NCBI GenBank assembly: GCA_903919185.1
Contig: CAIXHF010000024.1
Span: forward strand, 1-61,110
Origin: an uncultured Opitutia bacterium
GTDB taxonomy: Bacteria; Verrucomicrobiota; Verrucomicrobiia; Opitutales; UBA953
Direction: 5' to 3'
DNA: 61,110 nt
Shown: piece after piece, positions 18,175 to 41,333 of the stretch
How the letters are laid out: each line of letters starts with the position of its first letter
How positions within the stretch are numbered: the first letter of the stretch is position 1
Program-made: the position numbers and the translations under genes
Notes under the pieces: model-generated
Database searches by the model: none
Told to the model about the DNA's origin: nothing
Seen by the model: only the letters and a program-made list of their open reading frames with translations

Positions 18175-19299
18175 TTACTTGAGGGCAGACTTCACGCCAG
18201 CGATGACGCGGTCGCGGTCATCGACGGACATTCCTGAGCCCGAAGGCAGGCAGAGCCCTTGGGCGAAGAGACCTTCGGCAACCTGGCCGCCATGATATTC
18301 AGCCCCCGCGAAGACTGGCTGTAGGTGCAGGGGCTTCCAAATCGGCCGTGCCTCGATATCGAGTTTCTCTAAGGCAAGCCTCACGTCATCCGTGGTGGCC
18401 CCCGCTTTGGTCGGGTTAATCGTCAGACAAGATAACCAGTGCGTGGACTCTCCCCAGGATGCCTCGGGCTGCATGACAATACCTTGGCAAGCAGCGAAGG
18501 CTTTTTGATAGCCGCGGTAATGATCACGCCGGCGGGTGACCTTGCCGGCCAAGCGCAGCAACTGACCGCGCCCAATCGCCGCACAAATATTACTGAGGCG
18601 ATAGTTATAACCGATCGTGGAATGCTGGTAGTGCGCAGCGGGGTCGCGGGCTTGCGTGGCCAGGAAACGGGCCTGTCGCGCTAACTCCGCATCATCAGTG
18701 ACGAGCATGCCGCCACCCGAAGTCGTGATGATTTTGTTCCCGTTGAAGGAATGAATACCAAAGAGCCCGTGCGAGCCAGGGCTGGTTTCGCCGTAACTGG
18801 CACCCAGCGCTTCGGCGGCGTCTTCAATCAACTTCACGCCGTAACGCTCACAACAGGCCTTAATGGGCGCGATGTCAGCGGACTGACCATACAGGTGGAC
18901 CAGGACCAGGGCTTTAGGCGTGCGGCCAGCCTTGGCCTTCCGCTCAATCACCTCACAGACCACCGCCGGATCCATATTCCAACTCTGGGCTTCCGAGTCG
19001 ATGAACACCGGCTTGGCGCCCAGATAGGTAATCGGCGCGGCCGAAGCGATGAAGGTGAGCGTCGAGCACAGGACTTCGTCGCCCGGACCAACCCCGGCAA
19101 GCCGCAGGGCTAAGTGTAAAGCGGCGGTGCCAGAGGAGACGCCGACGGCGTGGCGCGAACCAACGACCTCGGCAAATTCGTGCTCAAACGCATCGAGCTG
19201 CGGGCCTACGGGCGCGACCCAGTTGGACTCGAACGCTTCGAGCACGAACTCGACCTCGGCACTGCCGACGTCAGGGGGAGAAAGATAAAGGCGGGGCAT
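18175..19299 (-). CDS. PglE-like PLP-dependent sugar-nucleotide aminotransferase
   Basis: 374-residue DegT/DnrJ/EryC1/StrS transaminase. The opening RLYLSPPDVGSAEVEFV and SNWVAPVGPQLDAFE resemble UDP-4-amino sugar transaminases such as PglE. GVSSGTAALHLAL binds the PLP phosphate, and SFNGNKIITTSGGG keeps the catalytic Lys189 that the ColD-like gene lacks. The expected reaction is glutamate-dependent amination of a UDP-4-keto-6-deoxy-HexNAc. The PglD-like acetyltransferase lies nearby. The true start is the ATG at 19299: a possible extension upstream would read into the repeat that borders the S23 element, 12 bases away. No PglF-type dehydratase is in the window. Confidence 0.88.
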   Translation of the reverse strand: MPRLYLSPPDVGSAEVEFVLEAFESNWVAPVGPQLDAFEHEFAEVVGSRHAVGVSSGTAALHLALRLAGVGPGDEVLCSTLTFIASAAPITYLGAKPVFIDSEAQSWNMDPAVVCEVIERKAKAGRTPKALVLVHLYGQSADIAPIKACCERYGVKLIEDAAEALGASYGETSPGSHGLFGIHSFNGNKIITTSGGGMLVTDDAELARQARFLATQARDPAAHYQHSTIGYNYRLSNICAAIGRGQLLRLAGKVTRRRDHYRGYQKAFAACQGIVMQPEASWGESTHWLSCLTINPTKAGATTDDVRLALEKLDIEARPIWKPLHLQPVFAGAEYHGGQVAEGLFAQGLCLPSGSGMSVDDRDRVIAGVKSALK

Positions 19300-19311
19300 G
19301 GGTGCTTTCAG

Positions 19312-19360
19312 GTGAAAAGGTGGAACTCGGAGCAAAGCTCCTGTGCAAAGGTGCAAAGGT
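19312..19360 (+). repeat. Left composite end of S23 element
   Basis: Degenerate outer box (GTGAAAAGGTGGAAC), a hairpin GGAGC-AAA-GCTCC (19329-19341), then an intact inner box TGTGCAAAGGTGCAAAGG. It aligns without gaps to 41142-41190. Confidence 0.7.
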
Positions 19361-19446
19361 CATTCCAAAAAACTCCTGGGTTTGAGTGAGTAATGATTGG
19401 AACGCTGAATAGTTGATGCCCTGGCAAGGAAAAGTTCATTGGCCTA

Positions 19447-19842
19447 GTGGCTACATTCACCCGATTCGAAGAAATTGAAGCATGGCAGACCGCGGAAGCC
19501 ATCGTAGTTCAAGCCTACTCCCTCTTGCGAGAAGGCCCTGGCGCCAGAGACTGGGCGCTCAATGACCAGCTTCAGCGGGCATCTGTATCTATTATGTGTA
19601 ATATCGCCGAAGGCTTTGAGAGCCGATCGGACCGTACATTCTACGACATGCTCCGCCGCGCCAAAGGCTCGTGCGGCGAGGTTCGCACTTTAATTTATGT
19701 GGCGGCAAAGATTGGGCATATATCTCCGGAGAAATACGCGGCGGTTAAGCCTACTTGCCTAAAATGCTCGGCGCAGCTCCAAGCCTTAATGTCTCACCTG
19801 GAAGCCTCTCGGCCAGAAGTCCAAGCTCGGAAGCGTTGGTAA
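19447..19842 (+). CDS. S23/IVP-type four-helix-bundle protein
   Basis: 131-residue small helical protein of the 23S rRNA-intervening-sequence (S23, TIGR02436-like) family. Marks are the N-terminal FEEIEAWQTAEAIV, the central LQRASVSIMCNIAEGFES, FYDMLRRAKGSCGEVRTLI and a basic tail. Relatives sit in 23S rRNA intervening sequences of some bacteria, and distant relatives (Avd) assist diversity-generating reverse transcriptases; free-standing copies have no known function. Start is GTG at 19447; AAGGA lies upstream but 16 bases away, so initiation may be weak. It runs against the surrounding operon and is bounded by the composite inverted ends. No reverse transcriptase or rRNA is near. Confidence 0.85.
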   Translation: MATFTRFEEIEAWQTAEAIVVQAYSLLREGPGARDWALNDQLQRASVSIMCNIAEGFESRSDRTFYDMLRRAKGSCGEVRTLIYVAAKIGHISPEKYAAVKPTCLKCSAQLQALMSHLEASRPEVQARKRW

Positions 19843-19860
19843 CAAAGACTTGCCTTCAAT

Positions 19861-19906
19861 TTTGCAGTTTTGCACAAGCCGGAGGCGGGTTGCACTTTTG
19901 CACGCT
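19861..19906 (-). repeat. Right composite end of S23 element
   Basis: Inner box TTTGCAGTTTTGCACA, a short hairpin around GCCGGAGGC, and outer box TGCACTTTTGCACGCT. It matches 41287-41333 closely and is an inverted counterpart of the left end. It ends 1 base before the stop of the EpsI-like gene. Confidence 0.7.
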
Positions 19907-19907
19907 C

Positions 19908-20633
19908 TCATTTCCACTCCCGATCTGAAAATACCCCCAGCCCCTGCAACGCCTGCAGGAACTCTCGGTTCATGGGGTCAGCGAGGATTTGGTCCACGGG
20001 AAGGTTGGAGGAGACGCGGATAAACATCTGCTCGCTCTTCTGGTTGAGGCCATAGGTGCGGATATCCTTCCAAAGCAAAGGCAGGCGCTCGAGGCGTCCG
20101 ACGAGGCCGTCGCGCCAACCCGCCGATTGCTCTTCGTATCGGTTAGGTTGGCCGTTCACGAGATGCCAGAAGGCGACGTTCTGGCGGCCGCCGGAAGGCA
20201 CCAGGTACTGGCCATACTCATAGGGCAACATGGCACGCCCTCCGACCTGAGCCGCCACCGCGTATTTACGCTCGGTACGGATGCAGCCATTGTTGACCCA
20301 ACAAGAATCAGGATTGTGCGAACCTGCATCGACGACGGAGACCTTACCGGGCTCCCAATAAGCGGCGTAGACTAAGATTGAAGTTTCCCCCCGAACATAA
20401 AGCGCTTGGGCCGACTGGCTGTAATTTAAGATTCCCTGGACGTTCATGTTCCCGGCTTTGCTGTCGGCAACGGGGATGTCACGGCGCGTCCAGCCAGCGA
20501 TATTCCGCGGTAAGGCGTCCACGACTTGGCCCGTGAAGCGGCGATCGCGATGTGAGAAATATTCCGCCGCGACCACGAGGCCGAGAAGCAGGACGAGGCA
20601 GGTCGCCCCGACAGAGAGGAGGGCTTTGCGCAT
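19908..20633 (-). CDS. EpsI/exosortase-associated protein (DUF3485-like)
   Basis: 241 residues with a single N-terminal membrane anchor (LLSVGATCLVLLLGLVVAAEYF) and a periplasmic domain. The family signature is seen as AYWEPGKVSVVDAGSHNPDSCW followed by GC about five residues later. In exosortase (Xrt/EpsH) systems this domain is fused to or encoded beside the exosortase and is tied to polysaccharide export and PEP-CTERM sorting. No exosortase gene is in this window. I start at Met 20633, which gives a normal signal anchor; a longer version would lie inside the upstream acetyltransferase gene. The ATG is 1 base after that gene's TGA, so the two are coupled. Confidence 0.82.
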   Translation of the reverse strand: MRKALLSVGATCLVLLLGLVVAAEYFSHRDRRFTGQVVDALPRNIAGWTRRDIPVADSKAGNMNVQGILNYSQSAQALYVRGETSILVYAAYWEPGKVSVVDAGSHNPDSCWVNNGCIRTERKYAVAAQVGGRAMLPYEYGQYLVPSGGRQNVAFWHLVNGQPNRYEEQSAGWRDGLVGRLERLPLLWKDIRTYGLNQKSEQMFIRVSSNLPVDQILADPMNREFLQALQGLGVFSDREWK

Positions 20634-20634
20634 G

Positions 20635-21261
20635 TCAGAGAACACGGGCGGGGTTGCCGACCACGGTGACACCGGCGGGCACATCTTTAATAACGACGGC
20701 GCCCGCCCCGAGCGTGGCACCGCTGCCGATGGACTGACCAGGGATAATCGAAACCCGGCTACCCATAAAGACGCGGTCGGCGACTTGCACCCGGCCAGTC
20801 ACATCGCAATGCGCACTCAACGTCGACCAGGCGCCGATCGAAGCATCATGTCCAACGGTCGTATGGAGATTGAGCATGACGAAGTCGCCCAAGACAATAT
20901 CGGCACTCGCGATGGCGCCGGGACAGAGAACGACCCCGTGCCCAAGTTTAACGCGACCACCGACCAATGCGCGGGGGTGGATGAAGGTCAGGAAATTAGC
21001 TCCAGCGGCGAGTAAGGGCTGCAGGAGCTTTTCCTTCACCGGCGGGAGCCCAAGGCCACAGAGGTAAAGTTTGTCGGGATCGACCACGTGGCCCGTGAGC
21101 GGCCGGACGTGAGCAAATGAGCCGAACGACTGCAACGCTTGGGAATTATCATCGAGGAAACCTTCGAGCTCCCAAGCCTGACCACAATCTGGGTGCTGAC
21201 TCGCCCAGACATAGAGTTCACGGCCGAAGCCACCCGCACCCACGATCAATAGTTTTTTCAT
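20635..21261 (-). CDS. PglD/NeuD-type sugar O/N-acyltransferase (left-handed beta helix)
   Basis: 208 residues. The first ~90 form a Rossmann-like nucleotide-sugar domain (KKLLIVGAGGFGRELYVWA, VEGFLDD-like ELEGFLDDN). The rest is a hexapeptide-repeat beta helix (GRVKLGHGVVLCPGAIASADIVLGDFV) with the catalytic-region motif NLHTTVGHDASIG and the typical ending VPAGVTVVGNPARVL. PglD transfers acetyl from acetyl-CoA to the 4-amino group of UDP-bacillosamine precursors; NeuD acts on sialic acid. The PglE-like gene two genes downstream favours the first role. Because an acyl carrier protein gene lies five bases upstream, an ACP-bound acyl donor is also conceivable; that is inference. Confidence 0.87.
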   Translation of the reverse strand: MKKLLIVGAGGFGRELYVWASQHPDCGQAWELEGFLDDNSQALQSFGSFAHVRPLTGHVVDPDKLYLCGLGLPPVKEKLLQPLLAAGANFLTFIHPRALVGGRVKLGHGVVLCPGAIASADIVLGDFVMLNLHTTVGHDASIGAWSTLSAHCDVTGRVQVADRVFMGSRVSIIPGQSIGSGATLGAGAVVIKDVPAGVTVVGNPARVL

Positions 21262-41141: not shown

Positions 41142-41190
41142 GTGCAAAGGTGCAAATCGGAGAGCGGCTCCTGTGCAAACATGCAAAAGT
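41142..41190 (+). repeat. Left composite end of the gene-less element
   Basis: Boxes GTGCAAAGGTGCAAA and TGTGCAAACATGCAAAAG around a hairpin; 39 of 49 bases identical to 19312-19360. Confidence 0.7.
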
Positions 41191-41286
41191 GGTAAGCGAG
41201 TGGTAAAAGAAATAGGCTGGGCGGCCGTGTGCGGTAACGATCTAAAACAAAATCGAGCTAGCCGAGATATCGCGACAGCTTCGACG

Positions 41287-41333
41287 TTTGCACCTTTGCA
41301 CAGGCCGTAGGCCGATTAGCACTTTTGCACGCT
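41287..41333 (-). repeat. Right composite end of the gene-less element
   Basis: Boxes TTTGCACCTTTGCACA and AGCACTTTTGCACGCT around GGCCGTAGGCC; closely matches 19861-19906 with a single-base gap. Confidence 0.7.

Follow-up and report, generated by a model that had tools for sequence, protein, structure and literature searches.

The window, by which we mean the whole 61,110-nucleotide stretch of DNA analyzed here, holds an S23 gene enclosed by two inverted composite ends, together with two flanking genes that mark the orthologous site in related genomes. An S23-less inverted pair of the same repeat family lies further along the window. The features are as follows.

18175..19299 (end about 19299), minus strand: flanking gene marking the orthologous site; named from motifs, and presumably sugar-aminotransferase-like
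19312..19357, minus strand: left composite end of the S23 element, with a decayed outer box at 19312-19326 and an inner box at 19343-19357
19329-19333/19337-19341: arms of the left-end hairpin, GGAGC-TTT-GCTCC
19447..19842, plus strand: S23/four-helix-bundle gene, 131 aa, GTG start, identified by profile match and fold; dN/dS about 0.05-0.16 against five relatives
19861..19903, plus strand: right composite end of the S23 element, with boxes at 19861-19875 and 19889-19903 and a hairpin at about 19878-19886
19908..20720, minus strand: flanking gene marking the orthologous site, which we take to be EpsI-like
41142..41187, minus strand: left arm of the S23-less inverted pair, window family
41287..41330, plus strand: right arm of the S23-less inverted pair, window family

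S23/four-helix-bundle genes occur in many bacteria, and their function is unassigned. The open reading frame at 19447-19842 belongs to PF05635 by profile search (E 4.8e-26; 91.5 bits against a curated cut-off of 33.8) and also matches TIGR02436, four helix bundle. Its structural model (mean pLDDT 91.9) matched the S23 structures 2gsc and 2rld, followed by Avd of the Bordetella phage DGR (4dwl, 8ub7); a resemblance of PF05635 to Avd is noted in PMC10053308. Because dN/dS is about 0.05-0.16 against five relatives, the protein is maintained by purifying selection. We rejected a defence or phage origin for the protein, since searches against PADLOC and PHROGs gave no match at E 0.01. S23 is the sole family-matched ORF between the ends, and no HUH (Y1) enzyme is found there. 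An earlier, sequence-only reading of this DNA had placed the S23 gene antisense inside an operon, and this orientation holds: the flanking genes are on the minus strand and S23 is on the plus strand.

The composite ends follow one design, in which two TTTGCAC-type octamers, a small hairpin and two more octamers are inverted at the other end. The right end (19861-19903) reads TTTGCAGTTTTGCAC, hairpin GCC-GGA-GGC, GTTGCACTTTTGCAC. On the reverse strand, the left end (19312-19357) reads TTTGCACCTTTGCAC, hairpin GGAGC-TTT-GCTCC, and then a decayed outer box, GTTCCACCTTTTCAC. Both of the composite inverted ends that had been proposed exist, with boxes and hairpin, but the left outer box, being decayed, is weaker than the sequence-only reading implied. 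The arms at 19342-19357 and 19861-19876 are 88% complementary across 16 nt. In the arm test described below, the window copy alone scores 23 against a shuffle maximum of 24, which is within chance, and it becomes significant only because of its family, namely 78 matches in the genome and a 73%-identical copy in G012. The hairpin of the composite ends is genuine. A stem of at least 4 bp occurs in 83 of 102 ends (shuffled mean 8.4, maximum 13), and stem sequences vary on both sides, being mainly GGCC and GGAGC and also GCGGC and CGGCC. Single-strand DNA folds of five ends gave z values from -4.0 to -0.8. The hairpin is thus conserved, and it is possible that the ends are recognized as folded single strands.

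Recurrence of the ends beyond the window, which a mobile element would entail, was found. The box pair has 78 matches in the host genome with at most one mismatch, whereas the reversed pattern has 6. A 36-mer of the end matched the host and 29 of 36 congeneric relatives, none of 20 genomes from other genera, and nothing when reversed as a control (57 genomes searched). The examined contigs of the host genome carry 47 window-family arrays, yet only six opposed pairs, five of which lack S23; all six share the same polarity, with a G-rich arm followed by a C-rich arm. Dispersed copies of the window family are therefore mostly solo ends, with a minority of inverted pairs that usually lack S23. We then counted neighbouring arrays within 900 nt for 12 repeat families, with S23-flanking pairs and orthologous loci included. 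Opposed arrays ran from a G-rich to a C-rich arm in 110 cases and the reverse in 4, and 26 neighbours were on the same strand. Among such window-family pairs, 22 of 36 are less than 360 nt apart and are therefore too short to hold S23. The intergenic site of the pair at 41142-41330 measures 34-49 nt and is array-free by eye in G008, G036, G002 and G070. The orthologous site is 150-393 nt long in 15 of 20 relatives examined, and several of these longer sites are filled with inverted pairs that belong to different repeat families and are nested within each other. In G066, the alignment at this site stops further out (72 nt).

Empty orthologous sites, for which the sequence-only reading had proposed to look, exist for the S23 element as well as for this second pair. 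A DNA query found S23 at the orthologous site in G020, G021, G017, G032, G026, G008, G033 and G067; the orthologue is split over two contigs in G009 and reaches the contig end in G029. G014, G002 and G036 lack the element, and their two flanking genes are roughly 10-25 nt apart, judged by stop codons. G019 has other sequence at the site and no element, and in several more relatives the site is occupied by an S23 gene of another clade, flanked by different arms. A whole element, 73% identical (query 1113-1704, corresponding to window 19312-19903), is present at another locus in G012. By flank comparison, window-type S23 genes lie at other loci in G012, G018, G001 and G062. The G018 and G012 sites are unlike the window's and have an upstream flank in common, and G062 and G001 share a further site. 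These relocated window-clade genes retain the window unit. At the main site of G001, one S23 element has apparently replaced another, and the window-type S23 of this genome lies elsewhere. Most defined S23 clades occupy a single orthologous locus, indicating that the gene-bearing copy moves rarely.

Inspection by eye of four window-clade positions revealed no target duplication. Gapped alignment of closely related genomes, aimed at exact young insertions, gave 25 candidates with no clean iteron element among them, most being coding indels or contig effects and one resembling a toxin-antitoxin pair, and so these candidates provide no exact junction or target duplication. The proposal of a mobile element is thus upheld by recurring ends, element-free sites and window-type S23 genes at other loci, though not by any target duplication that we could see, and we regard movement of these elements as supported. 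Two side observations concern these sites. In G001 (L085 2600-3340), two window-family left ends stand directly before a different S23 element with CCGGAAACCGG arms. In G008 (L121 641-1382), about 740 bp beside an S23 arm are missing in seven relatives, and from its sequence this insert looks like a small toxin-antitoxin pair.

A PF05635 gene is present in 44 of 55 genomes of the genus. We recovered 129 distinct S23 ORFs, leaving out a few places at contig edges and counting identical genes of different genomes once (three cases); 125 of these were testable for arms and 124 entered the protein tree. To score arms, the 350 nt upstream of each gene were aligned to the reverse complement of the 350 nt downstream. 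With a threshold of 35, set after shuffles had been seen, 105 of 125 S23 genes scored at or above it (median 49), compared to 6 of 167 conserved control genes drawn from 80 examined loci (median 19). In 103 of the 105, the upstream arm is richer in G than in C. Repeat units differ by S23 clade and include GTGCAAAG, GAGTACGG, GAGTATGG, GAGTCGGGGA, GCGGTTRG, TTGACACG, GGTGGCGG, AGGGGT and others. In the tree of 124 proteins, genes with the same unit group together, and the units of some adjacent clades resemble each other. For the 97 S23 genes with an arm score of at least 28 and a clade label, assigned from the tree by the analyst, the nearest arm neighbour by shared 7-mers was in the gene's own clade in every case (97/97; permuted mean 7.0, maximum 19). 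Any 7-mer was shared by 18 of 101 different-clade pairs within one genome, compared to 320 of 336 same-clade pairs between genomes, many members of a clade sitting at one orthologous locus and therefore not representing independent events. The end sequence is inherited along with the S23 clade. Given this co-inheritance and the same design in other phyla (see below), the suggestion that S23 might be a hitch-hiker is not supported.

The dispersed repeat units, or iterons, also co-occur with their cognate S23 genes across the 55 genomes, with p values that are optimistic because related genomes are not independent. TTTGCACY matches have a median of 36 in genomes with cognate S23 and 6 in those without (p 4e-5), and GCGGTTRG matches a median of 79 and 8, respectively (p 8e-5). 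GAGTAC matches are found in 13 genomes, including all six with cognate S23 (p 5e-7). All three families remain enriched, with p below 0.002, in the 40 genomes of at least 1.8 Mb. Of six non-cognate S23/iteron pairings in the main comparison, five were not significant, the other having p 0.006. Iterons also occur where cognate S23 was undetected, as in G021 with 91 GAGTAC matches; the genomes are 61-99% complete, and therefore S23 loss and assembly gaps are indistinguishable in such cases. By eye, another dispersed palindrome family, of the GTCGGGAC...GTCCCGACCCTACC type, lies among iteron elements in L225, L093, L042 and L075.

We scanned GTDB contigs with an alignment of 31 S23 proteins of the genus and analyzed the best 80 of 457 confirmed loci. 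By record title, these best 80 come from Bacteroidota, Acidobacteria, Cyanobacteria, Clostridia, Verrucomicrobia, Planctomycetes, Proteobacteria and others. Arms pass the threshold in 42 of their 85 S23 ORFs and fall below it in the other 43, compared to 0 of 240 control ORFs. The 42 arm-bearing ORFs at these loci have units of 7 nt (32), 8 nt (7) or 9 nt (1), with 2 ambiguous, and G outnumbers C in the upstream arm of 38 of them. A search for rRNA at the same best 80 of 457 loci gave no match at the gathering threshold. Fifteen plasmid records contain an S23 match; of eight examined, six carry arms and two fail. Plasmid S23 genes lie between nrdB and nrdA and adjoining sufB, and Nostoc plasmid S23 arms consist of GGGAGTA and GGGAACA heptamers. 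Two 50-kb Nostoc plasmid stretches away from S23 each contain only three period-7 arrays, with units unlike those of their own S23, which does not speak for dispersed copies there. In Nostoc sp. ATCC 53789, pNsp_c (L360) and pNsp_a (L366) have similarly arranged hypothetical genes after S23; the pNsp_c copy has inverted heptamer arms and the pNsp_a copy does not.

We propose that an S23 gene and its two inverted iteron ends probably constitute one unit, an S23-iteron element that is guided by S23 and has no transposase of its own. A mobile system whose specificity protein acts in trans would be expected to leave just such traces: iterons matched to the protein clade by clade, inverted ends, dispersed copies that lack the gene, and nesting. 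This proposal has to be weighed against readings in which the iterons are moved by an ordinary enzyme, do not move, or move as RNA. The genome-wide enzyme search covered two families, Y1 and RVT_1. Y1 genes are present in 28 of 55 genus genomes, and Y1-bearing genomes are richer in TTTGCAC matches (p 2.4e-4; p 9e-4 in genomes of at least 1.8 Mb) and in GCGGTTRG matches (p 0.014). These correlations are what would be seen if the iterons were passive MITE- or REP-like sequences on which an ordinary transposase (Y1/RAYT or DDE) acted in trans, with S23 as captured cargo; the hairpin-bearing ends are REP-like, and the dispersed copies, like many REPs, are mostly solo ends. However, nine genomes without a detected Y1 gene have at least 19 TTTGCAC matches, and GAGTAC matches do not follow Y1 (p 0.20). 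Moreover, the TTTGCAC box pair is absent at 12 of 13 examined Y1 loci, the exception being L151, with three about 1 kb from the Y1 match, and 5 of 10 Y1 genes with readable flanks bear inverted arms of another, GGGGTCAG-type sequence. Cargo capture also does not foresee iterons private to a clade or the same design in other phyla. The sequence-only reading had invoked a Y1/REP-type enzyme acting in trans. The correlation with TTTGCAC speaks for it, but we disfavour this candidate because of the box-less Y1 loci and their different arms, and we judge the wider passive reading unlikely. RAYT-like Y1 genes with their own GGGGTCAG...TGACCCC-type arms occur at L053 858-1772 (own genome, C159), L143, L147, L148 and L153. 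Genes of this kind in the genus are a separate REP system.

S23 could instead be a sequence-specific nucleic-acid-binding regulator, whose arms are autoregulatory sites or insulators and whose regulon is the dispersed, immobile iterons. Purifying selection on S23, its usually vertical inheritance and the many solo ends would suit such a protein, and a regulatory network is favoured by the authors of the TAACTGA study (PMC4679880). A regulon does not account for the polarity of opposed copies, the nesting of some of them or the orthologous sites that are entirely array-free, nor for window-type S23 genes at unrelated loci and plasmid S23 genes between nrdB and nrdA and between suf-type genes. 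For these reasons, we think this reading improbable. In another scenario, the arms would pair in a transcript, RNase III would free an S23 RNA, and reverse transcription would return it to the genome, as in DGRs or group II systems. When the RNA is folded to minimum energy, the two ends of the element do pair; S23 is similar to Avd, the partner protein of DGRs; and RNase III cuts rRNA intervening sequences (PMC4990558). Folding of the whole-element RNA is nevertheless unexceptional (z 0.5 for the window, -1.8 for L225), and RVT_1 was found in only 1 of 55 genus genomes and not in the host's own. Retrotransposition is therefore disfavoured for the genus, and we give this scenario very little credence.

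Since RVT_1 is rare and Y1 loci mostly lack these ends, we propose for the S23-iteron element that S23 marks the ends and the host completes the transfer. S23, a 2gsc/Avd-like four-helix bundle and presumably a pentamer, would recognize its clade's own 7-8 nt tandem units, probably on single-stranded DNA or on RNA and next to the small hairpin, and would mark and pair both ends. Cutting or copying would fall to host replication or repair, or to an enzyme yet to be found, rather than to a transposase of the element's own, and movement would depend on S23. The S23-bearing copy would move rarely and be inherited mostly vertically. S23-less inverted pairs and solo ends would spread in trans, insert into each other and come to occupy intergenic regions, much like REPINs and REP singlets in genomes with a resident RAYT. 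Where 23S rRNA contains an intervening sequence with S23, this may be a copy that inserted into an rRNA helix able to tolerate it. Should S23 indeed direct movement, S23-iteron elements would form a class without a recognizable transposase. A broader generalization is more tentative, and we put it slightly below even chances: S23 proteins across bacteria may be the specificity factors of widespread transposase-free mobile elements with private 7-8 nt iterons that co-evolve with each S23 lineage. Such elements would have given rise both to the dispersed heptamers seen in cyanobacteria, Xanthomonas, Beggiatoaceae and Geobacter and to those 23S rRNA intervening sequences that carry S23.

Several known systems share parts of this architecture. 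REPIN-RAYT systems comprise a mostly vertically inherited gene flanked by inverted repeats, plus gene-less pairs and singlets in intergenic DNA. The window family likewise has dispersed gene-less inverted pairs, in relatives and in five of the six pairs in the examined contigs of its own genome, with most copies being solo. The S23 four-helix bundle differs from the RAYT Y1 transposase in having no known catalysis, the S23 elements use tandem 7-8 nt units in place of a single palindrome, and no cognate Y1 gene flanked by the same repeats was found at 13 examined Y1 loci, 12 of which hold no TTTGCAC box pair. MITEs and IS elements have terminal inverted repeats, gene-less derivatives and nesting. 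S23 elements share inverted ends, gene-less derivatives and nesting with them, but have iteron arrays as ends, no transposase between these ends and no target duplication that was found. The window element also differs from IS200/IS605 in encoding no HUH (Y1) enzyme between its ends. Compared with DGRs, the modelled S23 fold is the same as that of Avd (4dwl, 8ub7), but Avd partners a reverse transcriptase, and RVT_1 occurs in only 1 of 55 genus genomes.

Further parallels come from rRNA and from heptamer repeats described without an associated gene. Our literature search, which covered mainly open-access journal papers, found none that connects iterons with the S23 genes they flank, other than those in rRNA. 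Intervening sequences of 23S rRNA also carry an S23 ORF between inverted ends, and in the Coxiella intervening sequence, tandem GACAGAT heptamers stand just before the ORF; mobility of these sequences has long been suspected but is unproven (PMC4990558). The window element differs in lying between protein genes, in lacking an rRNA match and in having dispersed S23-less copies. We rejected it as an rRNA intervening sequence, because Rfam searches gave no match at 18900-20300, which places the element outside any rRNA gene, nor any rRNA at the best 80 of 457 non-genus loci. Intergenic heptamers have been reported as GGGAATC in Xanthomonas and GGGGA(C/T)T in Nostoc (PMC4692102), TAACTGA in Beggiatoaceae (PMC4679880), and GGGACCG and MTYCTGA in Geobacter (PMC2700814). 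Neither PMC4692102 nor PMC4679880 uses the term S23 or four helix, and the available text of these heptamer studies leaves the origin of the repeats unexplained; the TAACTGA authors mention that a repeat-binding protein might be the mobile element (PMC4679880). Like the ends described here, these orphan heptamers are 7-nt tandem units that lie mostly between genes and in some cases form inverted pairs. One rule may unite S23 genes, rRNA intervening sequences and orphan heptamers: an S23 gene is enclosed by two arrays of its own heptamer or octamer that are inverted relative to each other.
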